Shown: positions 3,892-42,672 of the stretch, piece after piece
How positions within the stretch are numbered: position 1 is the first letter of the stretch
Layout: every line of letters starts with the position of its first letter
Origin: Phascolomyces articulosus
Lineage: Eukaryota > Mucoromycota > Mucoromycetes > Mucorales > Lichtheimiaceae
DNA: 64,000 bases
Direction: 5' to 3'
Assembly (NCBI GenBank): GCA_025677815.1
Contig: JAIXMP010000009.1
Coordinates: 496,001 to 560,000 of the forward strand
Notes under the pieces: generated by a model
Databases searched by the model: none
What the model was told of the DNA's origin: nothing
What the model saw: only the letters and a program-made list of their open reading frames with translations
Translations under genes and position numbers: made by a program

Positions 3892-5305
3892 TTACAGTTT
3901 ACTATCACTCTTATGATCATTGCTCACTTTAACAATGACTTTTCCAAATGTTTCTCGACTAGCTAATGCATTCATGGCTTGAGGCACTGTTTCTAAATTG
4001 AAAATCTTGGAATACACCACAGGGTTCAATTTGCCTTCAGCAAAGATTTCATAAAGTCCTTTCCAAGTCGATTGAATGGTCTCCGGTTCAAAATTAGAAT
4101 ATGCACCAAAATGAAGGCCACTATAGATATTTATGGTGTAATATTTGAAACAAACGAATATCAGTGGAACGGTGTATTAATTAATACTACTAAACATGGG
4201 GGTTGGGTTGATAAAAAAAATCCACGCGCTCGGATGAAAGGGTAGGTGTTAAATTGGTATGTGTGTTTACGTGTAGTTGTTTTACTTACACGATCGAGAT
4301 ATTCTTTAATAGAATACGATTGGTGGGTAATTTTTCAAATGTGCCCTTTGCAAAGCCGATGACGACAATTCTTCCGTTCCATGCGATGCAACGTGTACTG
4401 CAAAGTAATTCCGCAACATATTAATAATAATCCACATTGTCTCTCGCTCGCTCTCCTTGTTTGAGATCCAAGATCCGAGATTCAAAGTAAAATGGAAAAA
4501 TTCCCTTAAACGGTTTTTTTATTTTTTTTACCTTTCTTCGACCAGACCCACTGGATCATATACAACATCCGCACCATGACCACGAGTCACTTTTTTTACT
4601 TGATCTGTCCAATCTTTATCACGATAATTGATTATAAAATCAGCACCATTTGCTTTAGCTACTGCTAATTTTTCAGCAGATCCTGCTGTTGCAATCACAA
4701 TAGCACCTAATGCTTTGGCAATTTGAACGGCTGCCAATCCTACACCACCTCCAGCAGCATGGATAAGACAGTATTCGCCTGCTTTCAATTGTCCGCGTAC
4801 AATGAGACCAGCATAACTTGTAGGGTAAGTGACATAGAATGCAGCTGCTTGCTCAAAGGACATACCCTTTGGAATATGTCGAACATTTTGTGCTTTGGCA
4901 GTAATGATCTCGGCAAGAGAATGGCTGGATCCAAATACAGGATCACCTGGTTTAAATTCGGGGACAGTGGAACGTAAAATGATTCCTGACCATTCAGATC
5001 CACATATAAAAGGCAGTGGTGGTTTCCATTGATATTTTCCTTGAATCTATTTTTGGGGTGGGATGAAAAGAAAATATATTATTATTAGCTTTTTAGTATT
5101 GATAATGATGAAAATGGTGGTATGATATCATGTTTTGTTTTGAAAAGAGAAAATTATTCACCTGAAGAATATCGAAGAAATTCAAACCAGCTGCAACCAC
5201 ACGGACTTGAACTTCTTCTTGTTCTGGTTCTGCGGGGGATAAATCCGTTCGTAATACTAATTCATCAGGACCATCCAATAATTTTGTAATAAGATATCCT
5301 TTCAT
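3892..5305 (-). CDS. Zeta-crystallin/NADPH:quinone oxidoreductase-like MDR enzyme
   Basis: Medium-chain dehydrogenase/reductase of the quinone reductase branch, predicted to reduce quinones or related carbonyls with NADPH. Four exons: 5162-5305, 4532-5046, 4290-4397 and 3892-4120, giving 331 aa, the usual family length. The GroES-like half begins MKGYLITKLLDGPDELVL and includes LNFFDILQ and PFICGSEWSG. The Rossmann half has the nucleotide-binding motif HAAGGGVGLAAVQIAKALGA, then GADFIINYRDKDW and GADVVYDPVG. The C-terminal exon has LASRETFGKVIV, equivalent to the family's R-x-x-x-G-K-x-V-V ending. The structural and catalytic zinc Cys clusters of alcohol dehydrogenases are absent, which supports the quinone reductase assignment. 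The gene lies 404 bp upstream of the HSF-like gene on the same strand. Substrate is not determined. Confidence 0.9.
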
Positions 5306-5991
5306 TGTTTGTACTTGTTATATAGATGAGAAAGAGAAATAAAAAAGGAGGACACATGCAAGTAGAAAAAGGGATAGTCTTATACTTCCATCAATAACTA
5401 TAATTTATCACACAGGGTTAAAGATGAGATAATGCACTAGTAAGCGTGGGATAGTATGCCATTTATATCGAAATTATTATTCCTCTTTAATTTTTAGGAT
5501 TCCTCCTTTTCTTCGTTCCCTTAAATGAAAAATGACAATCCCTTTCATGTCTGTATCTCGATTTTGAGTCATTAGTAATTACAAAGAATTTATTAATGAC
5601 AATGGATATATAGTAGAAATAGGTTAAAAAAATATAGTTTCCCGATTTGTATAATAGTCCATTTTAAGCAAATAATTCAACTCCAAAACGATTATTCATC
5701 GGTTTTTTTTATGCATGTCATAAATCACATATTAGTTTTTTAATTAATCATGTATCGTTTGGTTAATAAATTATGATTTAATTTAAATATATATATATAT
5801 GGTTGACATAAAAATAATACATATTTATTACACACAGTAGCAACCATGTGCTGGTTTATTCACTATATTATTAAACGTTTAATATAAAAAATACAACTCT
5901 AGTAGGAGATGGTTATTCAATAGTCAAAAATTAAGAGTAAAGAAACAAAAAATGGGAAGATGATGACAATAATGATAATAAAGTATTTAAC
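5306..5991. other. Intergenic: promoter of the quinone reductase gene, 3' flank of subtilase 1
   Basis: AT-rich sequence with (AT)n at about 5789-5802. No coding exon is supported. Confidence 0.6.
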
Positions 5992-8900
5992 TTATTTAAT
6001 TTGAATAGGACCTGAAGCCCAGGTTTCCCAATCCTTCTCATCATCAGGATTACCGAGCCATTTCAAGACAGAAATACCAAGATGATATTCACCAGGGAGA
6101 AGGCTGACAGCAAGTGGGAATTCGATATCAAAGACAGTAGGCAAATATGTACCATTCCATTTCATGGAGATGGAAGGCTGACCACCATACGAGCGACTAT
6201 ATAAGTTAGCATCTGAAAATGCACGTCCAATTTCCTTTCCATTATCATTGAAAAGAGGGAACTTGATTTCTTTGGCAGGGACGTTCAAATAAGCAGAAAT
6301 AATGGGTTGAATAACATCACTACGATCAAAGACATAGGTATCGTTGGGACCAAACACGGGGACATTAGGACCTGTACCGTTGGTTAAAATAGGGGTACCT
6401 TGGCCAAAGACAGGAATGTCGCGTTGATTGCCAACAATACCAACATAGGGAACAGTGATATCCTTGTTTTCCTTGGTACCACTGGTCAATTGAACATAAC
6501 CACTATACATGATATGTTCGGCAGGATTGGTCTTGGGAGGCATTACGGTCACCTTGACTTGAACACTCTTGCCAGGAGAAAGCTTGATGGTCTTTTTCGA
6601 GAATTTTAATTTGGCGGCTTCGGTACCAAAAGTAGCAGGTTCAGTGAATTGGAAATCGTTGTTGCCAGCGTAAGGGATGATGGAGACACTAACATTGTTG
6701 TAAAGTTCGTAAGAAGCAATAGAATCACCATGGTTGGTAATGGTCAAAGTATGGGTTTTGAGGAGGTTGGCTGTGTCGTTGAAGCTAATGGCGGCAGGTG
6801 CAACATGAACTTGCTGCTTGATAGCATCATAGACTGTAAAGTAATATAATAATAAATTTAGTCAAAGATATATTATCAGTATTTTCATAAATTCAAAAAA
6901 AATACTGCATATAAAAAATAATGCGTTATGTATTTTACCTTGAACAAGACCAGCACCTTGACGGCAAGGCGTTTCAACATCATCTTTGGTGTTATCGCTA
7001 GGTGCCTTGTAAGCATAATTCGAGAATTGTTCAAGAACATAAGCAGGTGTGGTTTTCTTGCCTTCCAATGATTTTAAATACAATGCTATGGATCCAGAGA
7101 CATAAGGTGCAGCCATAGAAGTACCACTCATCATACCCCAACTTCCAATGGTTTGAGGAAGTGTAGAGATAATATAACCACCCACACCAGAAATAGCAGG
7201 AGAAAGAGCAAGTTCATTGGATGGACCCATGCTTGAGAAACTGGACACTGTGTTACCAGTAGGGATACGATAAAACTCCTTTTCTATATTAAATGTCAAA
7301 GACACCTTTACCTCTTTTTCAATAATAGCAAGGAGAGATTGACCAGCCTCTTGAGCAATACCCACAGTAGGGATGTTGGCAAGTTCTGTTTGAGGAGGAA
7401 TGACCATATCATTCAAACCGAAAAAGACAATACCAATAGCACCTGCCTTCTCCAAATTGCCAGCTTGCAAATTGGGTGGGCATGCATGAGTAGATTGAAC
7501 CAAGGCTAATTTACCCTTGACATTTTTTGGTACAGTAGAGGCATCGCATGCATCGGAACCGCTGCCTGCGTTTTTATCACCAGCAACAAGCTGACCATTT
7601 GGAATAGTATCATCTGTTTTAGAATAACCTTGGGCGTATTCTATTATAATGTTATTCAGAATAAATAAAAAATAGAGTATAGGTGAGATATTTGAAAATC
7701 TTTGCGTCAGTATAATAATGAAAGGGAGCTAACAATAGAAGTAATTGTTTACCATAGGAAGCTGAAGAGCCACCGACTTTGACAGTAGTGACATATTTAT
7801 AATCGTTATCAAAAGAAGCAACACCAAAGACACCTTCACCAAGAGGACCATCAGACATGGTGAATACACCAAGATCTCCAGAATTCCCAGCAGAAATAAC
7901 AACTACGTTTTACGAATATAAGTACTTTGATATACATTATAAATATATATACATATATAATTATTCAATTTACCTGGAACACCTTGAGCAGTAATATGAG
8001 CAGCAACACGGGCAGTTGAAGTTTCATTCCAGCCACTCAATCCACCCACACTCATACTAATAATATCGACACCAGCATCATATGCCTCCAGCAAAGCTTG
8101 TGTAATTAAATCTTCCCCGGATCCAAGAGAATTACAACCAAAGATGCGCCACATACCAAGAGTGGAATCAGGAGCAACACCGGTAAAATTCTATAAAAAA
8201 TATATCAAAGAGAATGAACATCATTGCATGATGTATCATTATTATCTTTTTTCTCATAAAGCAGCATGATAACAAACGGCTTCGATCGATTACTTACATC
8301 GGCTTTGCCTGCAATGATACCAGCAACGTGTGTACCATGTCCTATATATTATATATATGAATAATGTATAAGCCAAGATTTTCAATAGGGCATATTAACC
8401 GAAATGCGCCGAATTTATATGTCAATAGTTTACCTCCGGGACCGCTAAAAGAAGGTGGGCAATTATCCAAAGGGTCATCATCAGGTTTGGGTGTAGTAGA
8501 ACCGAACTGACCAGCGCCATCGTATTCATCACCAGCCAAATCACGACCATATCGAACTTTATAACCTTCACCAAAACCACCACCCAAGGCAGGATGCATA
8601 TAATCAATACCTAGAGTGTAGTTGTAGAATTTTGTTATAGTTTTTTTTAGTGGTAAAATAAAACAAGATCGGTGTAACTCCAAGAATTATAATGAATTTG
8701 TGTAATTTTAACAAAAATAGTAAGTAAAAAAACCTTAAAAAAGAGTATAACTTACCAGAATCAATGATTCCAACCGTAATTCCTTTGCCAGTATTTTTAA
8801 GTTCTTTATGAACACGATCCACTTGCGTTTGAGCATGAGGAATTAATCGAGACAGGTCAGTGGCACCATCTGAAGAAGAAGAGGATGAGGAAAAAGTTTT

Positions 8901-27754: not shown

Positions 27755-30017
27755 TTAGATTTTAATCGTATGTGTACCAATGGAAAAAACGAAGAAAAGA
27801 ACCCAAGAAGCCAACAGGGCAGCTGTAAACAAACCAATAATAACAACATTGATTGTTTTGACTTCCATTTCTTCAAATGAATCATAACCTTGACGATTCA
27901 ATTCTATTTCTCGATCATTGCGTTCCTTCATGAGTTCTTGACGTTTTTTACGTGATAATTCCAATAAATTACCCATAAAGAAACGTTGAATAAATAAGAA
28001 GGCGACTACAATACATAATCCCATACATGCCATCACCAGGTACAATATCATAACACCTATATGAAATACATATCGTTTTTTATTTGTTTTTTACAGGTGG
28101 ATTTACCGAAATAATTAAACATGGTGTATTCATAAAAATAAGAATTATTACCTGAGTAGGATTGGCCTTGTGTTCGATCTTGTACCAAACCAACAATGAT
28201 ATCTAAAATCACAGAACCAACTAATATTGATACAGCATGAAACAATGAGTATATAAAGCAATGATTATGACAAAAGTTTGTGATATGATTGACCCACTAT
28301 AGACATACTGTTATTGCTTGATTTATAAATTCCAAGACCTGTTCCAATGTAATCGGATGGTAGAATCATGCCAATCGAGGTAATCATGGGAATGGTACCA
28401 AAGGCTAATGAAAACGAATAAAAGACCATGCCCACCACCGCATTCACATACGTATAACCAAGTAACACAGCACAAATGATCAAAAAGACGCCAGAGAATG
28501 TCACTATAATATATTATAATTTTTCTAACATGAGTCTCTTTGATGTAAAAAATAAATGGATGTCTACTTTAAAAAACTCACATATTTTAATACGATAACC
28601 AAACATATCTATAAAAATACCAAGTAATGGCACCACCACAATAGGCATGATTTGAGATGCACTTGCCGTATAACCCGCAAGCACCCCTGTGGTACCGAAT
28701 CGATTCTGTACCAAATCTGTACTAATCGTTTGAAACGATGACCAGACCGAAGCAAAATTAAATTCAATGACAATGACATTCCAAAAGAACACAGGAAACT
28801 TCATGATGGATTTATATTTAAACGATTTCTTTTTCTTGAGTCGAGAGACCTCTTGATCCGTGACTTCACTGGTACCTTCCAAATGATAGACTACCAAAGC
28901 ATAAATGACGTTCATTACAATGTAAAAACCACATAAAACAAACGCTAACCAAAAGGCCCAAGCCCAATTTCCCGTCCGTTCCGTAATGGGATTAGCCACC
29001 AATGTACCCAAAAAAAGTCGATAATCGACTGATGGAAAGTTGCATGCCAATAGCAATGGATAAATTTTGTGTGCGAAACCATTTGGATAATACAGATTCT
29101 TGCATTGTTACAATAAGTCCACCACCAATACCAAATATAATTCGACCCACGATCATGAGTGGAAAGGAGGCAAACTGAGCCGCCAGGGCCGTCAATAAGC
29201 TTCCCAATATGACAAGACCATTTACCACCATGGTGCAAATTACAGAACCAAATAAATCAAGAAACATACCTCCAACAATAGGGAATATTGTGTTGATGAT
29301 GGAAACAGAGGATGATAAGACACCGTATCGTGTATTGTCAATATGGAGATTTTGAAAAAAAAAATATCATTCAGTGTAATACCATATAGAACGTTTCGCA
29401 TTATCAAATCACTCATCTTTTCATATATAGCATAACCTATATAACTCTTACTTACATCACGAATAGAAGATTTCATAGCACTTAAAGCACTAGTAGAAAA
29501 ATGTGAACCCACTATTTATAATTAGTAACAATAATTTATAGTAAATAAATTGCTTGCTTTGCATCAATTCAAGAGAATTGTTTGTTGTGTATCACAAATC
29601 ACCTGGTAACCTATAATAAGTAATCAATACATTAAATTATTCGAATGATAATAATGCCACACACTGGAATAAAAAGATTTCGTAAGTTAATTACATCAAA
29701 GCAGTAGCAAGTGCGATCACCTTATAACGCCATGGTGCATTAGCTAGTGCTGTATCACCTCCATGGTGTTCTGCTGGCTTCTCTCCTGGAGGTGTTGGAT
29801 GATGATCTTCTTGGAAAGGAAGATCTTTTCCATCCTCAGTATCATCAAAAGTACCAGACTGTGTTCTTTCTGTATCCAACGAAGGTCGATGTAATAACAT
29901 ATCTTTTGACATACGATTTACGGCGTCTAATGATTGTCTTTTATTTGTTATTGTGTTGTTGTTATTAGAACCTGCCAATCTGCCAGCTTGCATATTTTGC
30001 TTCCGAGGGTAATCCAT
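27755..30017 (-). pseudogene. Damaged MFS transporter (MFSD1-like), paralogue of the gene at 40679-42672
   Basis: Coding blocks: 29695-30017, an 8-nt exon 29603-29610, 29456-29511, 28582-29351, 28309-28503, 28152-28220 and 27755-28056. It aligns block by block with the intact paralogue (GSHFSTSALSAMKSSI; GSLLTALAAQFASFPLMIVG; LSKWFRTQNLSIAIG; WSSFQTISTDLVQ; MKERNDREIE). Two lesions break it. A run of seven T (29010-29016 on the plus strand as A) has one base too many after QLSISRLST, shifting the frame. The 3' splice site before NLHIDNTRYG reads CAA at 29352-29354 instead of CAG, with no other nearby AG. Removing the extra base would give a total divisible by three (573 aa), and no other damage is seen, so the decay is recent or part of it is sequencing error. 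Twelve-helix MFS architecture is expected for the family. Confidence 0.8.
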
Positions 30018-32970
30018 ATAATCAAATGCTGGAAGGAGAAAATGTGGTCTATTATTATCTTATGATCTGGTAAGATAATTTTTTTTTAAGAAAAAGAAAT
30101 CATGAAACCCTTGTGTTATCTTTGGATACTTTATCGAATGATCAACAGGTTCGATCAGATAAACAAAAATTATTTGAAAAGGGGGCCGATTAATGCAAGG
30201 GGTTCTTTTGACATCAAGATTATTTATCAGATTCAGCGTATTTAAAATCATGCAAAATCGTAGCGCGGAACCCAAAAGTATTTTTTTTTTTCGGAGGGTA
30301 GAATTCATATTTTTAAAACGCGAGAAATAAATAATGCACCTGGCAAGTAACTTTTCATTGATCTTTGTTTTTATAAACACGGTCCTGTAACATTAGAAAG
30401 CTAGTAGAAGATGTTGAGAGAACAGGTGTCGGATTGATTGATCCAGGTCATATTTAATTTTTTGATTAGGGCGTTGTTGTTCCTTTTGGTGTGTGGTTAG
30501 TTTATTGGCGGTCTGTGATGCTAGTTTTTAGGTCAAGGTGATTGCTTTGAGATTTATTCCATCCGTTTGCCTTGAATTCTGTTATACTTAAATCGCTTAT
30601 TAGGTTTCTGGGTCGTAGTTCGGAAAGCTTGTATTTTTTTTTTTAAATACATTCATGTTGTTGGTGTCGTTTTCAATTGATTTTAAAATAGTTGAATCTT
30701 GCGTGTCAAGGATAATTCATAAATTTTGGCAGCTTCTTTGGAAACGATTTCTTTCTATGTTTTTTTTGTCAATTGCTTCTCTTTCGGTTTGGATTTATCT
30801 CTGTATCACCATTTTCAACCTTGCTTTCAATGATTTTTGTTTTGCCAATAATAGAATCCAATGCTGAGGGTTCAAAGAAAACGCATATGGATTTTGATCT
30901 TCTCATAATCTGAAAATTTTGATAACATGTATCGATATCCAAATCGACTGCTATCTCATATTTTTTTGTCCATCCTATTTAATAGCGAATGATTATATAA
31001 ATTTCAATTCATATAATACAATGTCATAAGGTATGTAAATAAATGTTTATATATTAGTTGAAGATAAAAGGTCTGATGATGAAATGTGCCAAGCATGGAG
31101 GATAATAGCTGGATCCCCAAAAGGTTGATAGGCTGACTTGGATGTCGTATCCTTAATTGGATCGTTTAATATCATGGGGTTTAGCCATAGATACATATCT
31201 TATTAATATAATATCAAAATGAATGTATTTTACTACAACGTTGATATGGATTTTAGCAAAATCTCAAAAGATACAGTAATCCATATAATAATTATCTCAT
31301 CAAGCTTTTATTGATTCAAGTATTGAGCATTGTTCAAAGTAAAGTAATAAAATTATAATTTTTTTTCCTGTGGTGGAGGATGAAAGGTTTTGGATGAAAG
31401 TTTCTTGTGAAGTAAACGTCACCATATTGTGAGAACCTTTGTGGGAAAAAACTCTTCCAGAAGTATTTCGATTTAGTATTGGAAGCTCTAGGAGCGTATC
31501 AGCTTGGTGATTGATACAATGGTTGTATATGATGTTGCTGGTATGCTTTTGTCAAAAGATAAGTAATACAGATATTATTAACAAAAGTGGTAGGAATAAA
31601 ACTAGTGTTGGGTATTGCTCATGACAGGATAGATAATGTGAATGGCATGTCGTTGTCGATAAAATAGTTAAATTCATATATAAAGGTGTATTCCAGAGAC
31701 TGAATACATTGAAAAAAATGTGGATATTGCGTCGGTGCCTTCTTCGTATATTTGTTGAGTGGCACTGAAGGTGTCGAACCGGAGGGTGATAAACCTTCTA
31801 CCTTCTCGTGGTTGTTCTTGTTAATCAGATTACATAGTTTTTTTTTTAGAACTAGGGGAAGGCTATTCATTTACGTATATTTTTAAACAAACTAAAAAAG
31901 ATAAGGTTGATATACGGCGATGGGGTTTTTGACAGTTGATGTGAATAACGGTGCATTCATGTTGGTATAATAGTAACTGAGATAGTTTTCTTTATCTTTG
32001 GGTGGTTATTTGGTTGGTATATTTTCCGATGTGTCCATTATAAATATGTGTTATTTGTGGATTATAATCTAATGTATAGTGGAATGACGGTGGTAATGGG
32101 ATTTAAGTATTCAAGTACGGCAAAAAGTGTACATAAGTATGAAACACTTGATGAGATGCTATATATCAAATCTTTAACAAAGCATAATGGAATATATTCA
32201 TAACGTTGTTATATATGGATCATCTACCACAAACAATGATATCGTAAAAACACCATTACTCTTTCACAACAAAATCGTCCTTTAGCCTTTCACGAGCATC
32301 CATTCAACATACATATGGAAGAATTTTCTTGATATGATATATGACGTTTATTAATGAGTTATTTAAAAAGGATATATCAAAAGTTACAAAGGTGGATCAG
32401 TCACCAACCTTCTTTTATTAGATCTGGTGGACGATAATGAAGCAAATCGGTCATCGGATAAAGTTCGTCGTCTCATTGCGTATGCTTTTCCAATATTATC
32501 CGTATCCAAACGAACACACCATTTTTCGTAGCAATCAAGAACCGCAACAAAATAGTATCAAAGTCATTGAGATAATTACCAAGGTCGTCGATGGAGGTGG
32601 GCCCAGTAATGCTTCCAATATGAGTAAACAAGTATATTCCATCTGCTTGTAACGGGAAACACGAAAAAAGGTGCTCCTTTTTTTATGGCCAGTAAAAGTC
32701 ATACCAATCAAGTGAGAAATCAAAAAAGTGCATCTTTTTTTTCTGTGCTTGTTCCTTTAAGTAAAAAAAACGAGAATTACCCTTCATATAATTAATAATA
32801 ATTTCTAAACTACAGTAAGTCTTTATATCTTTATTTTTATAATACATACGTTATATGGCTCTATAGCTGAAAATTAGTATATAATCATTGATGGTATAAA
32901 ACGGGTGATCTAGTGTATATTTCTATTGTGGGCAATTCAGTTTTAACATACCCAGTAGTATCATACTGGC
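30018..32970. other. Intergenic with scattered open fragments
   Basis: AT-rich. An 83-codon open frame at 31619-31870 (-) contains EGLSPSGSTPSVPLNKYTKK, and a plus-strand stretch near 32400-32640 reads NEANRSSDKVRRLIAYAFPI and then, in another frame, IKVIEIITKVVDGGGPSN. Neither has a start, splice pattern or motif I recognise. They look like eroded relics next to the transposon-rich zone. Confidence 0.4.
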
Positions 32971-33045
32971 TTATTGGTGTATGTATTTATTATTGTTGTT
33001 GAATTTTGAAATTATGCAAGTGCACAAAAAAGGTGCACCTTTTTT
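32664..33045. repeat. Three copies of a short A6-GGTGC-type palindrome
   Basis: A perfect 20-bp palindrome AAAAAAGGTGCACCTTTTTT lies at 33026-33045. Near-copies lie at 32664-32683 (GGTGCTCC core) and about 32723-32742 (GTGCATC core). They could form small hairpins or act as remnant element ends. No function is assigned. Confidence 0.6.
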
Positions 33046-33640
33046 CATGACACTCGCTTGTAACTTATTAATGAAAAATTCGATATGATGGCCTAAAAAA
33101 TATACTTATGTTAGCTTCCTGTAAAACTTTTTATAGAAAATTATCTAGTGGCTTCCTACACCTGGTGATGATGTAAGAAAAAAAAAACTTACCAACAACC
33201 TGTACTCCCATACATCCTTTCAAGGCATTTGTATCTAATGAATTTTTTGTCAAAACACTCAATCTTACTAAATCTTTGGGGACGCAGTAATTGTTTTTTG
33301 GATCAGAGTGAGGTTTTACATCAACAAACCCAAGTGATGCGTCAAAGTATAATCCATCAATCTTGCTTACACAAGAATCTGGCCGTTGAATTATAATCGA
33401 CCCTTTCGCCAGTACATCCTTTGCTTCTTGATTGGTAGTACTCCAAATTTGCACATAATCCCAAACATATTATGGTCCAAAATCACGTTACCACCGGAAT
33501 AGCACGTCATTTTTAGGGCCATCGAGCAATGGTAAAAACACTGAATCAATTTAGCGATAACAAAGTTCAGATTCCTTTATCTCAGATTTCAATTTTCATC
33601 AGTAAGTTTATCCACTCCAAAAAAACAAGAATATAGAATA
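32971..33640 (-). pseudogene. Relic of a mucoralean hypothetical protein family with a PD-(D/E)xK-like signature
   Basis: Reading the minus strand in one frame gives a coherent but broken protein: IKESELCYR, stop, IDSVFLPLLDGPKNDVLFRW, stop, RDFGP, stop, YVWDYVQIWSTTNQEAKDVL, then VSKIDGLYFDASLGFVDVKP, PKDLVRLSVLTKN and GCMGVQVVG. A GTAAGT donor at 33185-33190 joins it to a second exon (HHIEFFINKLQASVMKK) ending at 32971. The layout recalls a large family of uncharacterised Mucorales proteins (a SE-x-x-Y block, then a hydrophilic core with an E/D-x-K motif, then a W/MQ-x-x-G block). At least three in-frame stops show it is not functional. The nuclease-like reading of D...DVK is inference. Further N-terminal sequence may continue to 33767. 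Confidence 0.55.
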
Positions 33641-34216
33641 GTATAAATATATTTTCTTCTTCTATAAATACAAATAATACAAACAGACTGGTGATTGATT
33701 TGATGATTTTTTGTACGATTTTTGGTTGGCCTTTGGATAAAATTAATAAATCAATAGTTGCGTCCAATCTTTCAATTTGTTCGTTTTTTTACATCCTGAA
33801 TAACAAAAATAAATAAATCATATCTTAGGGTTGGCCTTTGATTTTCATTTATCCATCAATGGCCGTTATTATTATTTCTTTTAACCTTAATAATCTGCTG
33901 TATTTTCTGTTCAAGAGTTGGATCAAATTTTTTGGATGAATTGTAGATAGTAGTTAGAGTTGATTGGTCATGATGGACTCCAGATCAGGATGAAACTTTT
34001 TATTCTGTAAAAGTAAAACAGACGACAATGCCCTTTTCCAAAAATAAAAATAAAAGTGAGCAATTTGATGATTTCACCCCCATCAAGTCACAATAAGAAA
34101 GATTCATACAAAGAAACAAAATAGTTCTTATTCACATCATCCCCTTTCTTATTTTCTTTCCCTTACTTTGCACATCCTTTTTATACACGAACCACATGTA
34201 AAACACTTCCGTTTAT

Positions 34217-34630
34217 TTACAATATATGATGAACATGACTTTCGATGCACAATTCTCTATAATTATTGCTACAGATCACTTGAAACGTGTAAAATAAGTG
34301 AGAAACATCTTTCTCATCCATGCGATAACGATTTTCTTGACAAGGTAGTATCAATAATATTTTGTCACTGTCATTCCCTTCACTGTCGCCATCATTTTCA
34401 TCAGTAGAACGATTTGCAGTTGTAGTTGTAGTTGTATGAGTACGACGACGACTACTCTGGTTGGAATTATCCATGCTTGTATTAATAAAAAAGAAATATA
34501 TCAAACCTTTTATATAAGAATCAAATTATATCCCATCCATTTTGTTATCCATCCGGCCAGTACCATACCTATTATCGCTTTGGTTATCATAGATTGGTTG
34601 TAATACAGCTCGAGCAGCACGAGGTGTCAT
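34217..34630 (-). CDS. Small hypothetical protein, Thr/Ser-rich, two exons
   Basis: Tentative gene. Exon 1 at 34569-34630 (MTPRAARAVLQPIYDNQSDN) is joined through a GTATGG donor and a CAAG acceptor to exon 2 at 34217-34475, which starts MDNSNQSSRRRTHTTTTTT, continues with an acidic stretch (DENDGDSEGNDSDK), and ends with LPCQENRYRMDEKDVSHLFY. The spliced frame stays open to a stop at 34217. A further intron after HLFYTFQ is possible. I recognise no domain. It lies between the nuclease-like relic and the Fanzor relic, so it could itself be the 5' part of a decayed element gene. Confidence 0.3.
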
Positions 34631-35132
34631 AGTATATTTTTAGTATTAGATGTTACATTTTCTGCGTCACCACATAGCCTTATGTTTTTGTAAAAATATA
34701 TCTTTAGCTTTTGACCTGGTGAATCACTGTTCTTGTCCTTTTATATTTGTTGATTGTTGTAAAGAAGCATTCGTGCTCCTGGCTTGGCGTTGCCGCCAGA
34801 CGACGCAAAAACAGAAACGACAGAGAAATGATGCTAGTTCTTTTACTGTGCTTTTCAATGATTTTTTGTGCTTGTAAATGATAAGGATTACTTGTTGCCG
34901 ACTAAAAAAATATCATTCATGATTTTAGTTAAAATAACTACAACCTTTCCATTGATGCAAAGGATAATAACCAAAAGATATTTTACATACTAATACTTCT
35001 ACATTCATATGAACGTTTGACCAAAATTCCTTAAATCATATACAACCCTATAAGTTCCAATAAGGTATCAGCTTCATTCCAATTAATTTTAAAAAATAAA
35101 ACCACCAACAATTAAAAGCTTACATTTTTTTG

Positions 35133-35352
35133 TCATGATTTCATGTGTTGCTTCCATATTTTACCAAATCTGTCCTTCCACAAGGAGTATAATGTCTCTC
35201 CATTACTTGCTTTCGAAGTGAGGGACCAAATAGCAACATCATCAATGTTTGTTTTGATGAATTTATTGAAATCTGGGTTTGATTCAACTTAAAAGTATTC
35301 CTCCAAAGCAGCATAACCAGGATATCCATAATGAAAATCTTTAGACCAAAAA
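35133..35352 (-). pseudogene. Broken coding exon of unknown family downstream of the Fanzor relic
   Basis: After an ATAG acceptor at 35353, one frame reads FWSKDFHYGYPGYAALEEYF, a TAA stop, then VESNPDFNKFIKTNIDDVAI and ETLYSLWKDRFGKIWKQHMK to a terminal stop at 35133. The amino-acid composition is clearly protein-like on both sides of the single stop. Family unknown. It lies about 400 bp beyond the Fanzor C-terminus on the same strand and might belong to the same mobile element or to a separate relic. Confidence 0.4.
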
Positions 35353-37248
35353 CTATGCATAAAAACATTTATATATAAAAATTATAAATCAATATGGAAA
35401 TGGCATCTTTCTTTTGTTTTTAGTATAAATCCTTTGATATAAATTCAAATATATAAATAGTACTTGTTTCAGAAAAAATAATAAGCAAGATTTATTAATG
35501 GTACAAATGTACACCAGACAATTAAAATAGGGATAGTTTGCAAGTGTGCGATCAAGATCAAACAAGTGAAACGCGATCTGGATCAAGAAGCTGCGGCTAT
35601 CTGGAACAATGGAACAGGATCCAAATAAGGCTTCTGATAAGCAATTAAGAGAAAGTGATTGTATCAACAATATAAAACAAATATGATTATTCAATGTTTG
35701 AGTGATCGAGAACAGGCCCTCTATATTCATCACCAATAATGACTTTAGCAATTCATATAATGTGGCTTGTTAGCTTAATCATTCTCACATAAATAAAAAT
35801 AACGTACCACCTTGGCCATATTACCAGTTCCTTACTGGCTATTGGAGAACAAGCTGTGCTCTGAAGGGAAGGGTGCCTTGGTTGGTGATTTAAATAATCG
35901 AGGAGGATTTGGCGCATATTACAAGCGGCATTTACATCACGATCCAAAAACTATAAAAAGAAAAAAAAAGTAGCCCAGTAAATACTGACCAAAGCACATA
36001 GCAAAAGACGATGATCTGGTGCAGCATCTCCATCCCACAAATAGTTGAGGCAAACCTTTAAAAGATAGATTACGCGGCGATAATCCTTAACCCCTGTGGA
36101 AAATGTAAAAGTAAGGAACATTAGATAAAATGAGGTCATCCAACAATTTGATTGTACATGAAGCTTACCCAGTTGTACTCTGTCAGGACATTGCGATGTC
36201 CTGATTCTTATTCCGCCCGGTAACGTACAGAACAAACGTCTACGATGTCGAGGGTGTCCACCAGCTTCTTGCTTAAATTTATTATGGCTAAATCTCGATC
36301 TATATAGTATTTATGTTTGTTGTTAGTAATGAAAAAATATATTGATATATATACAGATAGATAGTAATGGTAATAAACTTACGGATGTGTACAAACAGCC
36401 ATATCATCTTGTCTTATATCCAAAAGACGAGCATGACAACCGGAACTTATTTTGCTTGTATTATATTCATCAATACATACCACTGGAACGCAATGACTAA
36501 GATACCTTCTGAAGGTCTAAAAAATTACATAAAGATGTTTAATAAAAGGTATGTTTATTATTCTGATTAAATTTGATTCTCTCGCTTATCCCAAAAAATA
36601 CTGTAACCTTTAGGTTTGTACTTATTATAAGTGTGTATAGAGATAGGTTACGGTAGGTTTCGGTGATAATTTAGTGAGCGCCAACAATAATATCGTTTAT
36701 TGTGAACGGTAGTTTGAGATGCTTATTTATAAGAAGAAACGTTTTAGATAATATTTGATGTTATAATGCTTTATATGTAAGTAGATCAGGTTCAGGGATA
36801 TTATGAAAACGTTATGTCTTAATATAATCAAGAATATAAAGTAGAATCGATGTCTTGGATCAATTCAATAGAAATAATAATAACAATTTGTTATATATTC
36901 TGTGATAAGACTCTTAGTTTGTAAGTCTGAAATGAATAATATGAAATTAAAACAAGCCAATTGTGTGGGCGTTGAGTGACCAAAATATAATTCAATTTAA
37001 AAGATAATTATAAGGTAAAGATTTATTGAATCAAAAGTTGAGAGGTATTTATATGTTTTTGAAATAGTTGTGCAGTAAAAGATAATAAGAATATGTGTAA
37101 TAATAAGAAGGTGTGGTGATAATACTAAATAGGGGAATAACAAATAATTGGATGATCCACACGATAGGGATCTACAAAATAATAATATGAGGGATAAGAG
37201 AGAATAGTGAATATGTGGGGAAATAATAATAGAGAGAATAATAAGATA

Positions 37249-37920
37249 CAGTACCCGCTCGCTAAACCGGTATTCGTTAAACCGGTATTTCGCTAAACCG
37301 GTACAATCTCTCAATTATTTTTTATATACATAGTAAAATACCGGTGATTCGTTAAACCGGTATCCGGTAGACTGGTCCAAATATTTACTGGTGCTATAAT
37401 ATATATATATATTATTTTTAAGTATTTTTATGTAGTTAGCAAGTATTCTACGTAACTCTAGAAGTGCAGGTTTCGAAGCTTTTTAGAATCAAGATTGTGC
37501 TCTGTCCTGCCATAAGTTCATTTTTTTTTCTTCAATATGTCGCTGATAGTCTGCTGATCAGGAACCTTTTCCAATTTGAACTCGTCTTTGGCCCATTTGG
37601 CAAGTTCGGATTGAGTAATCTTTGGCTCTTTTTCTTTCTTAATACAAATAGCAAGCTTTTAACGTATTGTCAATGCACTTTTTTGCCCATATCGACGAAA
37701 ATAAAAGATAATGAAATAAAATAAGAATATCATTATTTACAATAAGCATTTTCGATTCTTTTATATTATGCAACCTAGTTCAATCTTCCAGCATATACTG
37801 TCAACAGGGTTTCAAAAGTTAATCGGTATTCGCTAAACCGGTATTTCGCTAAACCGGTATTTCGCTAAACCGGTACAGTTCCTCACATATTTTGGGTACC
37901 GGTTTAGCGAGCGGGTACTG
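37249..37920. mobile_element. Non-autonomous pogo/Tc1-mariner-type element (672 bp) with TA target duplication
   Basis: The ends are CAGTACCCGCTCGCTAAACC at 37249 and its reverse complement ending ...GAGCGGGTACTG at 37920, a perfect inverted repeat of about 22-24 bp. A TA dinucleotide flanks both sides (37247-37248 and 37921-37922), the target duplication of Tc1/mariner/pogo elements. Subterminal repeats of the unit TTCGCTAAACCGGTAT occur about three times near each end, and a variant lies near 37349-37372. These are candidate transposase-binding sites. The interior has only a remnant of a CENP-B-type DNA-binding domain (37518-37655, minus), so the element is an internally deleted derivative that needs a transposase in trans. 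Confidence 0.92.
37518..37655 (-). pseudogene. Remnant CENP-B-type helix-turn-helix of a pogo-like transposase
   Basis: One open stretch reads EPKITQSELAKWAKDEFKLE then VPDQQTISDILKKKK and a stop. This matches the N-terminal CENP-B/pogo helix-turn-helix pattern, in which a Q-x-x-L-A-x-W block is followed by P-x-x-x-T-I-S-x-I-L. Upstream sequence in the same frame meets a stop almost at once, and no DDE catalytic domain is present inside the element ends. Confidence 0.8.
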
Positions 37921-38179
37921 TATTTGGTGAAGTGGAATTTTAGTTACAATATGTAAAATATATTATACTACATACTTTTGTTGGTGCTGGACCATTTCCT
38001 TTCATTGTACCTCTCAGGTCAGCATCTCCATATGCGATAAGCATCCTTTGGTGGCGTGGTGGTGATTGGATGTGTGTTCCTTGCAAGCGCCCTATATTTT
38101 CTCAAAGAGTTCGCGCTTGTAGACATCGCTCAGCTTTACGTTCAGCCTTGGATTTTTTTAAAGTTGATTGAATATTTGG

Positions 38180-40678
38180 CTATAAATTGAAAATAACAAG
38201 AAAAAGTTAACGTTAAACTATTATATCATTATCGATATTGCATACTGTAGATTAAACTGCTGGATATTAATTACCTTTACTATTCCTCCAGCAATATAGT
38301 CTGCCATAGTGTCTAATGCACATAGACATCAACAGTTTATTTCAAAGTACTTATTACATCGTGTATATAACGACGCAGTGGACAACACTGTATACTTACA
38401 GTCGGGTTCGATTGGACAGTTTCAGGAAGCGCGAGTGAATAATGGGTAGAGTTTAGCGTCGAGTTATATGACGATAAAATGATAATGGAATCTTGACTAG
38501 CAAAATCCCTCTTTTTATATACGTCGAAATATAAGGGGCTAATTACTACGTCTACACTGAGATAAATAATCTGCATTTCTATCTAGGATATCTAATATTC
38601 TTATATTTCTATATACAACCATACGTTCGTCCATCCATCATGTCTCCTTGATATCATCGGATGCTAACCTTATGGGTTGTATATCGTCGTAATGGCATAC
38701 ACCATTACAGTGTCGTATTATCGACATTGACAATATGCACAATCACCATTATTATTATTCATCATTACATCATGTATAATTGATCCTAAATATTATCCAC
38801 ATAAAATTAGAAAACATAGAAATGCCCCCTCATCATCAACCTCTAAAACACTTTCTTTCAATTTAAACCTTTTATTATCCTTTTTAATTTCTATTATTCT
38901 ATTGGCTTGGTATTGATATTCCAAAAATATTATGAAACTAATTGTATTGATAATAAACTTTCCAACTCTATGCTTGATGGCCGCATATTATGCACATGTA
39001 ATTGCTGTTTTTATCAGAAATTAACAATATAATAATTTTAATGCATCGTTGACTATTTTTTTTCTCGCTGTTCATGGATAAAAAAAACAAAATTTTGTTT
39101 CTTATTACGTAATCTCTTTATTAAGAGAATGGCGCAAACATGGATTCACATGCCACAGTACTACTGCTCATTTTAATTGAGAAGATCAATGGTAATGCTC
39201 TTTGGCATGTATAATTAATTTTATGAAGTAGATATACATTCACAAACTCTTTTTTTTACACATTACTTACAGAATTCCTTTAGTTCTTAATAGAGACCTT
39301 TGGGGTAGTGAAAATTCATCTGTAAGCAGAAAATGTGTTTTTTATATCAACCAAACGTGAACGTGGAATGTTCCCTATAATTACACATCAAACTGGTGGG
39401 GCATTCCAAGGAAACCATGATAACTACTAACAGCCAATAAATCCTCACAAATGAAACAATCTGTAAAGTCTTGATCAGTTTCGAAACATTGAATAATCTC
39501 TATCCAGTAATGGAGATAGACACAACGGACAGCAGTGCAAATCCGAATATAATAATAAAGTTATATCTGGTTCTAATACTGTGTCTTTCATCATCCCAAT
39601 CTATTATCTCTCCTCCAGTTTCACCCGGTTTATCTTCTATCCGCCATTGCTCTCCTATTTTTTTTCAATTTTGGCCTCTTATAATCCCTCCCAACTCTCT
39701 TAAGCTACAGTATACCACACTTCATGTTAAACACATCTTTCTTATTCCCAGTGTGTGATTAAATAAAAAAGGACTCGTGAAGTTCATTATATTTATACAG
39801 AAAAAAAATGTTTATTTTAAATTACCAAGGCATACGTTGATGATGTTGGATATACCACTGATGGAAGGATCCAGATCGCAAGACAAATACTTAGGCGCAA
39901 AAATAGGAACGAACGCAGAATCATTGGCGCAAGTTAGTTCTCCAAACAACGTAAAAAAAAATAATAAAAAAAAAAACTTCGAAAAACATGCACATCTATT
40001 ACACAAAGAAAAGGAAGTTAAGGCCGTACGCACCACCAGTAATAAAACAACGTGAACAAATAAATTCTTCACCCCTGTACTTTACAAGTTGAAAAAATAT
40101 TTTGGGTTATACCTACATTTTCTAAACTTCTCACACAAGAATCAAAAATAGTAATATTATGGTGTTATGTTTTGGATCTGCTAAATGTTGTACGATCAAA
40201 AATATAATAATAATCATCTGAACAACAAAAAAAAAAGAGATGAAATACAAATACAGAATTTCATTTGCAAAGGAACTAATTTTTATTTGTCTGTTATCAA
40301 CAGATTGTCCTTATATATATATATATATATATGTAGTGAGTAAAAGTACATTAGAATATCAAATAAGTTGCAAAAAACAAGTAAATAAAAGTAGAGTATG
40401 GTATGATATATGAAAGAGTGGGAGAGGGGAAACGGTTAAGAATTGATAATAATGATAATAATATAAAAAATAATAGAATTATTATGTGTAATTATAAAAA
40501 ATGATAAGTAAAAAAAGATTAGTGCATGTTCCGTTATATAATGGTGAGGAATACAGAGAAAAAAAAGCTGCATAATACAACATAAAAGAAGTTTATAACA
40601 TTTTATCAAAAAATGTTATTAATAATGGAGGCAGTAGTAATTCATTTGTAATATAGAAATATAGCATATATAACTGCT
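38180..40678. other. Intergenic/relic zone upstream of the Fanzor remnant
   Basis: 38280-38340 (-) may hold one more Fanzor exon (MADYIAGGIVK before a GTAATT donor) that joins in frame to 38179. 38400-38576 (-) has an exon-like stretch (ALPETVQSNPT) whose donor phase does not fit the next block. 39471-40055 (+) contains two open frames of unknown nature, one reading MMLDIPLMEGSRSQDKYLG. (AT)n lies at about 40314-40332. No intact gene is supported. Confidence 0.4.
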
Positions 40679-42672
40679 TTACACAGAAGCTTTACCAGAA
40701 ATGGCATAAACAAAAAAGAGGACCCATGCAACAATAAGGGCAGAGATGAAGAGACCAAGGAAAACAATATTGAAAGGTTTGATTTTACCATCCTTGTAAG
40801 AATCTTCACCTTGTGTAATATAGGCCAATTCCTTGTCATTTCGTTCTTTCATCATAGCTTGACGTTTCTTGAGACCAGCTTCAAGTAAGTTACCCAAGAA
40901 GATACGTTGAGTAATCAATAAAGTGACAATCATTACGAAACCAATGGCAGCCAAAATAATATACAAAATCATGACTCCAGTGTAAGCTTGTCCCTCGGTA
41001 TTATCTTGAACAATACCAATAACAATATCAAGAATAGATGTACCAACTATGATCGTAAACAAATTAATGAAAACACAAAGCAATTATTAGATTAGTTGTT
41101 ATTATTAGTTGTGAAAAAAAAGAAGAAGAGTTTATTCGACGTGTCGTTGTTAAGAAAAAAAGGCACACTTACTGTTGTTACTCGATTTATACATGCCAAG
41201 ACCGGTTCCGATATAATCAGAAGGTAAAATCATACCGATACTGGTAATCATTGCAATAGGACCGAAAGCCAACGAAATGGAATAGAAAACCATACCAACG
41301 ACAGCATCAACGTAAGTCCATCCCAATAAACCGCAGCTGAGAATTAAGAAGACGGCAGAAAGAAGAACTAATGATTAAATATTAGTAAACAAAATATTAA
41401 AAAAATTTCCTAAAAAATGATGTTCCCAAAAAAAAATTTCTTCCAACTACTTACGAATAATAATACGAGCACCAAACATATCCATAATGATACCAAGAAC
41501 AGGTGTACCAACAATAGGCACAATCAAAGAAGCCGAAGCCTTATAACCCGCCAATTGAGAATCACTATTAAAGTGAATTTGAATCAACTCGGTACTAATA
41601 GTTTGGAAAGAAGACCAAACGGCAGCATAAATGAATTCAATGGTAATAATACCCCAATAAAAAAGAGGGAACTTGAGGACAGACATGATTTTGAATGATT
41701 TCTTTCGCTTCAACTTGAACACATCTTCCTTGTTCATGACATTATTACCAGATAAATGACGAACAATCAAGGCATAGACGAGATTCATGACAACAGAAAA
41801 GGCACAAATAATCAAAGCAAGCCAAAAGGCCCACACCCAATCGCCAGTGCTTTGGGCGACAGGGTTAGCAGCCAAGGTACCCAAGAAGGAAGCTAAACGG
41901 CTGATGGATAACTGAAGACCAATCGCAATAGATAAATGTTGTGTACGGAACCATTTGGAAAGTAAGGATTCTTGCATGGTAACAATTAAACCGGAACCAA
42001 TACCAAAAATGACTCTGCCAACGACCATCAAGGGGAAAGAAGTGTATTTACCAGCAATGGCGGTTAATAAACTGCCAATGATAATAAACAAGTTGACCAC
42101 AAGTGTACCCCAGACACTGCCGAATAAATCCATAAAGACACCACCAAGAACAGGGAAAATGGTGTTGATAATGGAGACAGCTGAGGCAAGGACACCATAA
42201 CGCGTGTTATCAATCATCAAGTTCTAATTAAAATAAACTTTGATGTATTAGTACGTTTTTTCTTTTGTGATCGCGTACCGGTTTATTTAATAATGTAAGG
42301 TTGTTATTCTTACCGTCTTGATAGAAGATTTCATGGCACTAAGCGCAGAGGCAGAAAAATGAGAACCCACTATATAAAAATGTATAAGTCATCGTCATAT
42401 ATCACTAGGTAATAAGTACCTGGTCGACAAAATCATCATTTTTTTTTACCTGGCAATAACAAAGCAGTAATAAGAGCAATGGCCTTAAATTGCCAAGCAG
42501 CATTGGCCAGGGCAGCATCACCCCCTGTTAACCCATGATGATTATTATTTTCAATGGCTTCACTTGAATCAAGTGTATCATTCCTGATAGGATCCGAAAC
42601 AGTATCATATTCTGTTTTTTCACCAGTGACGATCGTTTCTTGTTTTTCTAACGTAGCAGGATTATTCGTCAT
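40679..42672 (-). CDS. MFS transporter, MFSD1-like
   Basis: Predicted multi-pass transporter of the major facilitator superfamily. Similarity of the central blocks suggests the MFSD1 branch, which in animals acts in lysosomal membranes, but substrate and location here are inferred. Five exons: 42450-42672, 42314-42369, 41455-42223, 41173-41367 and 40679-41046, giving 536 aa. The N-terminus is hydrophilic (MTNNPATLEKQETIVTGEK) and cytosolic. The first helix region carries GSHFSASALSAMKSSIKT. The loop GGVFMDLFGS fits the MFS D-x-x-G-x-R region between helices 2 and 3. Helices then follow with GSLLTAIAGKYTSFPLMVVG and LSKWFRTQHLSIAIGLQLSI. A basic central loop (KLKRKKSFK) separates the two six-helix halves. 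The C-terminal half has GIIMDMFGAR and DYIGTGLGMYKSSNN and ends in a hydrophobic helix. No lesion is seen. It lacks two introns present in the left paralogue, whose main exon would be the same 769 nt after removal of one base. Confidence 0.9.

Follow-up and report, generated by a model that had tools for sequence, protein, structure and literature searches.

A probable Fanzor pseudogene without its N-terminal half in the mucoralean fungus Phascolomyces articulosus

Tblastn of the Circinella umbellata protein BDC45DRAFT_532106 (P0001, 340 aa, partial) on a 64,000-nucleotide stretch of the Phascolomyces articulosus genome (contig JAIXMP010000009.1, positions 496,001 to 560,000 of the forward strand; hereafter the window) delineates, on the minus strand, a Fanzor relic that runs from 38322 to 35864 in six exon blocks. 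The matched segments follow the order of the protein (38322-38275, 38179-37976, 36516-36385 and 36304-35864; segments at E 4e-39 and 1e-29), and the last of them spans two introns and contains blocks 4 to 6. The relic and the repeats in and beside it are arranged as follows:

38275 to 38322, minus strand: exon block 1, CALDTMADYIAGGIVK; 5' side broken mid-exon at 38322, GT donor kept
37976 to 38179, minus strand: exon block 2, interrupted in frame by a TGA and carrying YGDADLRG, which is not RuvC-I; AG acceptor and GT donor kept
36383 to 36516, minus strand: exon block 3, with CIDEYNTSK (Fanzor-type RuvC-II Glu) and the first zinc knuckle, SSGC; AG acceptor and GT donor kept
36169 to 36299, minus strand: exon block 4, an arginine-rich insert separating the zinc knuckles; AG acceptor and GT donor kept
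36056 to 36093, minus strand: exon block 5, VKDYRRVIYLLK; AG acceptor kept, donor uncertain
35864 to 35950, minus strand: exon block 6, with RuvC-III (LDRDVNAACNM) and the C-terminal tail; AG acceptor kept
36597 to 37248 plus 37921 to 37952, no strand assigned: older dispersed repeat, matched at 82-93% by ten further rows that start near 36600 and reach the query end
37246 to 37923, no strand assigned: short element whose inverted ends (27 bp) are perfect, lying between TA 37247-37248 and TA 37921-37922
38366 to 38712, no strand assigned: dispersed repeat directly upstream of the truncated block 1; at least 47 other rows
34624 to 34822, no strand assigned: dispersed repeat of about 200 bp downstream of the relic, seen in at least 40 further rows, with 40 of 91 candidates scored

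The blocks quoted by an earlier sequence-only reading of the window were recovered where it had placed them, on the minus strand and in the same order as in P0001, by both tblastn and BLASTP. That reading had joined five blocks in a common frame; the frame over blocks 1 to 5 is continuous, but the blocks number six, the extra one being 38322-38275, and the junction phases are unequal (block 3 stops after the second base of a codon, block 4 after the first). The GT donors of blocks 1 to 4 read GTAATT, GTATGT, GTAAGT and GTAAGC, and the acceptors of blocks 2 to 6 all end in AG. Joined, blocks 1 to 5 give a spliced frame with no frameshift and one stop in 214 codons, the TGA of the 38179-37976 block, which had been noted before together with SSGC in place of CSGC; both are confirmed here. 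The lone stop, the unshifted frame and the kept GT/AG sites leave room for a spliced transcript of the relic. The locus is already annotated in P. articulosus as a hypothetical protein, BDA99DRAFT_558216 (P0002), several pieces of which are 100% identical to the window by tblastn. This model omits part of block 2, TGA included, and takes a peptide of the short element as exons; its exon choice is an annotation artefact.

Blocks 2 and 3 are separated by an intron (the gap 37976-36516) that two insertions, one nested in the other, have enlarged. The short element measures 678 bp and is inserted at a TA within the older repeat; eight rows, the window's own included, cover its full length at 92-100%. 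In L018, L019 and L020 the older repeat is uninterrupted at the short-element site, which fixes the insertion order of the two elements. A weak Pfam match of the short element to HTH_ABP1_N (E 9e-4, 19.3 bits against a cut-off of 22.5) hints at a parent of pogo/CENP-B type. For the repeat upstream of block 1, 40 of 104 candidates were scored and 50 rows listed, of which one is the window itself, two lie outside the repeat and some are second pieces of one place. The relic region is flanked by genes resembling MFS transporters at 28514-30059 and 40679-42223, both on the minus strand, with Pfam MFS_1 matches in the ORFs 28992-29366 and 41447-42223.

All six joined blocks, read in the corrected frame, align with P0001 by BLASTP at 149 of 228 identical columns (65%; E 4e-113), a match that is not due to chance. 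A protein search with a query in which block 4 and part of block 5 were out of frame and block 1 was absent returned four proteins at E<=1 among 32 candidates (best E 3.7e-54), two from C. umbellata, one from C. minor and one from P. articulosus itself. Members of the same family share the motifs of the relic: YGDADLRG, DEYNTS and LDRDVNAACNM in P0001, DEYNTS and LDRDVNAACNM in C. umbellata BDC45DRAFT_357300 (P0004), YGDVDLRG and DEYNTS in C. minor INT45_013123 (P0003), and YGDADLRG in C. minor INT45_007538 (P0006). Unlike the relic, P0001 keeps CSGC and CQNC and extends further toward the N terminus. The Circinella copies look partly decayed too, because P0003 has EPG at the DPG position and RSGC instead of CSGC. 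A protein search with profile A5 yielded three proteins at E<=1e-4, of which two were already part of the query.

The profile check that the sequence-only reading had called for bore out its assignment in part. Profile A3, run against 177,635 PDB sequences, placed the Fanzor1 structures PpFz1 and SpuFz1 as the top two at E 0.015 and 0.034, values not significant alone, and two acidic residues align; the third was not found in the window, and the corrected joined blocks score 23.5 bits with PF07282 (E 6.4e-5), below the gathering cut-off of 26.3. P0001 itself scores 23.2 bits with this family, and a genome search with PF07282 (E<=0.001) found four places, the window not among them. The two leading PDB matches hint that the relic belongs on the Fanzor1 rather than the Fanzor2 side. 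Single-sequence searches with the first composite of the blocks, which was partly out of frame, gave chance-level PDB matches (best E 0.56) and no NCBIfam family, and AlphaFold2 models were unusable (pLDDT 40 for P0001 and 34 for P0005, the protein encoded at C23).

Two of the three catalytic residues are readable in the relic. In the alignment of profile A3 with the PDB, the Glu of CIDEYNTSK aligns with E541 of SpuFz1 and the Asp of LDRDVNAA with D606, both given as catalytic residues in the available excerpt of PMC11423790. By hand count, the DEYNTSK Glu corresponds to residue 935 and the DRDVNAA Asp to residue 1000 of the 8gkh chain, a distance of 65 residues that is the same as between E541 and D606. 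The excerpted text of PMC10711439 places an alternative RuvC-II Glu six residues ahead of the zinc finger, and the relic matches this spacing, with E, six residues and then SSGC (CSGC in P0001). Based on this spacing and on the register with SpuFz1, the earlier RuvC-II and RuvC-III assignments hold.

The first zinc knuckle lies inside the DEY block and not in the 35990-36299 block, which had been likened to the zinc-ribbon insert. The homology of block 5 extends beyond 36056 to KVCLNYL, a decayed second knuckle. Comparison with P0001 indicates that no complete C4 zinc finger is left between RuvC-II and RuvC-III: the relic has SSGC and CLNY against CSGC and CQNC, a loss of two of four cysteines, the second inferred because KVCLNYL stands where P0001 has KICQNCL. 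In P0001 (residues 212-294), the two zinc knuckles of this Fanzor family stand 75 residues apart, much more than the 12-18 in the search pattern given in the excerpt of PMC10711439 and the 34 counted in SpuFz1.

Upstream of block 1 the gene could not be followed. None of the N-terminal parts of five relatives (P0001, P0003, P0008, P0009 and P0005) matches the window at an E value below 0.16, and the RuvC-I Asp in its DPG motif was not found in the window with these queries, in agreement with the earlier description of a decayed Fanzor-type gene without its N-terminal half. In the whole genome (E<=1), P0001 matches solely from residue 119 on, at the window locus, C23, C67 and C35; in a search confined to the C77 locus, its residues 37-116 are also matched, at E 7e-5. 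There (L056), the exon equivalent to block 1 continues upstream unbroken, and the window copy was therefore cut inside an exon. The dispersed repeat at 38366 starts 44 bases upstream of the break.

Further Fanzor loci were found in the same genome. A search with the first composite (partly out of frame, E<=10) gave five rows at the window locus and a single row at C23. With P0001 as query, C67 and C35 also came up, as weak places, and P0011, an N-terminal half from C. minor, matched 17 stretches at C26, C21, C77, C32, C100:1288 kb, C35 and C67. Seven other loci of the relic's family (L048, L047 and L054-L058) are partial or broken as aligned, with stops that may partly lie in introns through which the alignment ran. 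This check applied tblastn of five relatives to ten of the 13 fetched loci, leaving out L043, L044 and L045; among the ten, L046 (C45:1634757) has no match to the five. At the expected VDPG, C21 reads VDQG and C77 reads LGP, and at the C21 locus two successive matched pieces lie 3.3 kb apart.

An intact copy elsewhere in the genome had been suggested, and none of the relic's own family was found in the genome searches made; a distant Fanzor with all motifs does exist at C23:

L042 (C23:1323000-1332900), frame 4911 to 6041, minus strand: C23 Fanzor frame, with two further open frames upstream

In this gene (P0005, BDA99DRAFT_532144), a single open frame of 376 aa contains RD and four Cys as well as DPG and the alternative Glu. 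Inverted repeats measuring about 1.6-1.8 kb, 80-90% identical, lie on either side, and the stretches matched in the genome searches are 31-36% identical. A single-sequence PDB search with its protein matched LaTranC (E 0.055 and 0.095) and gave one further match attributable to chance. A second, broken copy at C25 (L043) is 91% identical over 3.2 kb and has a stop shortly before the DPG block. At C33 (L045), a 323-aa open frame carries DPG and NRD together with a Glu ahead of CPTC, and has CPDFH at the expected place of the second knuckle; at C27 (L044), DPG and EHNTSK lie in two successive frames, and one ORF of that locus matches nothing in the PDB below E 0.25. C23 is thus perhaps not the sole complete Fanzor of the genome, since C33 and C27 also carry Fanzor motifs. 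Other kinds of PF07282 or Fanzor-like places are represented by C33, C27, L046 and L049, the last of which (C45:1806038) is related to the C23 gene and decayed.

A guide-RNA scaffold and the ends of the putative former element were also sought. An Rfam scan of 33000-41000 gave no match at E<=1, a result that covers guide RNAs of families held in Rfam and would miss others. Around the relic, no convincing inverted ends were seen among the 25 listed of 86 inverted-repeat pairs, and a second DNA-level copy of the relic gene, which would define the element ends, was not found in the genome searches.

We conclude, with high confidence, that the locus is a pseudogene: the C-terminal part of a spliced Fanzor gene of the Circinella/Phascolomyces/Zychaea lineage that has lost its N-terminal half and two zinc cysteines. 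It retains the stretch from RuvC-II through the zinc ribbon to RuvC-III, and we propose that the Fanzor was once carried on a mobile element and that an intact relative would be an omega-RNA-guided DNA nuclease, as expected from SpuFz1 and PpFz1. The break at 38322 removed the RuvC-I Asp along with the regions N-terminal of RuvC-I; the stop codon and the loss of two zinc cysteines are further damage, and two transposable elements, one within the other, entered one intron. Because the RuvC-I half and zinc cysteines are missing, nuclease activity of the present copy is most unlikely. In simulations (1000 runs per setting), 36 amino-acid changes produce a mean of 1.97 stops, with one stop or fewer in 41% of runs, and the stop count fits recent death and neutral decay alike, without discriminating between them.

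This conclusion departs from the sequence-only reading, which saw a Fanzor fossil with all three catalytic motifs present. Its three quoted motif strings do occur in the order it gave; however, the first, AYGDADLRG, belongs to the downstream YGD/YGS segment, and its candidacy as RuvC-I was rejected, the relatives having RuvC-I (DPG) as a separate block further upstream. In Zychaea mexicana P0009 the order is SIDPGIRSLVTAV, much later VAYGDG, then LIDEY, and in P0005 it is GGDPGICSLL, then IAYGSA, then TSEIRTSK; AYGDADLRG aligns with the YGDG of the former and the YGSA of the latter. RuvC-I of P0009 and P0011 reads DPGIRSLVTAV, and P0001, which starts one residue past DPG, aligns with P0009 from there on. 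Moreover, the YGDA Asp is Asp in six and Ser in two of the eight A3 rows that cover the segment or its equivalent, a count in which the window's own gene model leaves the segment out; Ser stands in P0005 and P0010. It also stands too near the Glu, at 33 residues in P0001, as compared with the 158 residues between D383 and E541 of SpuFz1. The YGD/YGS block probably occupies the position of the canonical TnpB RuvC-II strand, and survival of all three motifs is very unlikely.

Two other explanations fare no better against the same data. The fungus might have exapted the truncated, RuvC-I-less gene as a nuclease-dead Fanzor-derived protein that is still spliced and expressed; nuclease-dead TnpB relatives have been exapted in bacteria. 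The splice sites kept at the read-out junctions, the unshifted blocks with their lone stop and the existence of the automatic model P0002 are what such a protein would lead one to expect, but the unmatched N-terminal half and the two lost zinc cysteines speak against it, as does the fact that P0002 skips the TGA part of block 2 and uses the short-element peptide; we judge exaptation highly improbable. Were it true, the relic protein would be a eukaryotic counterpart of those bacterial proteins. An unrelated zinc-binding or transposase fragment that resembles RuvC by chance would explain why the Pfam score is weak and falls short of the curated threshold, yet such a fragment would hardly share 65% identity over 228 columns with P0001, a bearer of the TNB, alternative-Glu and RD motifs, or yield two Fanzors at the head of a PDB profile search, and this explanation is exceedingly improbable. 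A Fanzor pseudogene therefore remains our preferred reading.

As such, the relic is a decayed record of the spread of Fanzors in one Mucorales lineage, within a genome that holds several Fanzor loci. It alters nothing in the known working of Fanzor nucleases; its practical lesson is that the Fanzor YGD/YGS block is easily mistaken for RuvC-I. A literature search on Phascolomyces articulosus returned nothing, and in another search none of the 15 papers listed, of 335 with at least two of the terms, contained the word Fanzor; neither result shows that nothing has been published.

PpFz1 (Parasitella parasitica, 9cf0) and SpuFz1 (Spizellomyces punctatus, 8gkh) are described in the excerpts of PMC11423790 and PMC10432273 as RNA-guided nucleases with solved structures, the zinc finger of SpuFz1 being CCCC. 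The relic shares with them the register of the pre-zinc-finger Glu and the RuvC-III Asp, and differs from both in lacking RuvC-I and two Cys. Bao and Jurka (2013) reported transposon-borne Fanzor elements in Rhizopus, Phycomyces and Mucor (PMC3627910, excerpt). Some of the Fanzors in that excerpt belong to MuDR-like elements, which have inverted ends and 9-bp duplications, whereas no ends were recognised at the relic among the inverted-repeat pairs listed; as a putative Mucorales Fanzor1 gene, presumably once borne on a transposon, it would otherwise be of the same kind as the elements described there.
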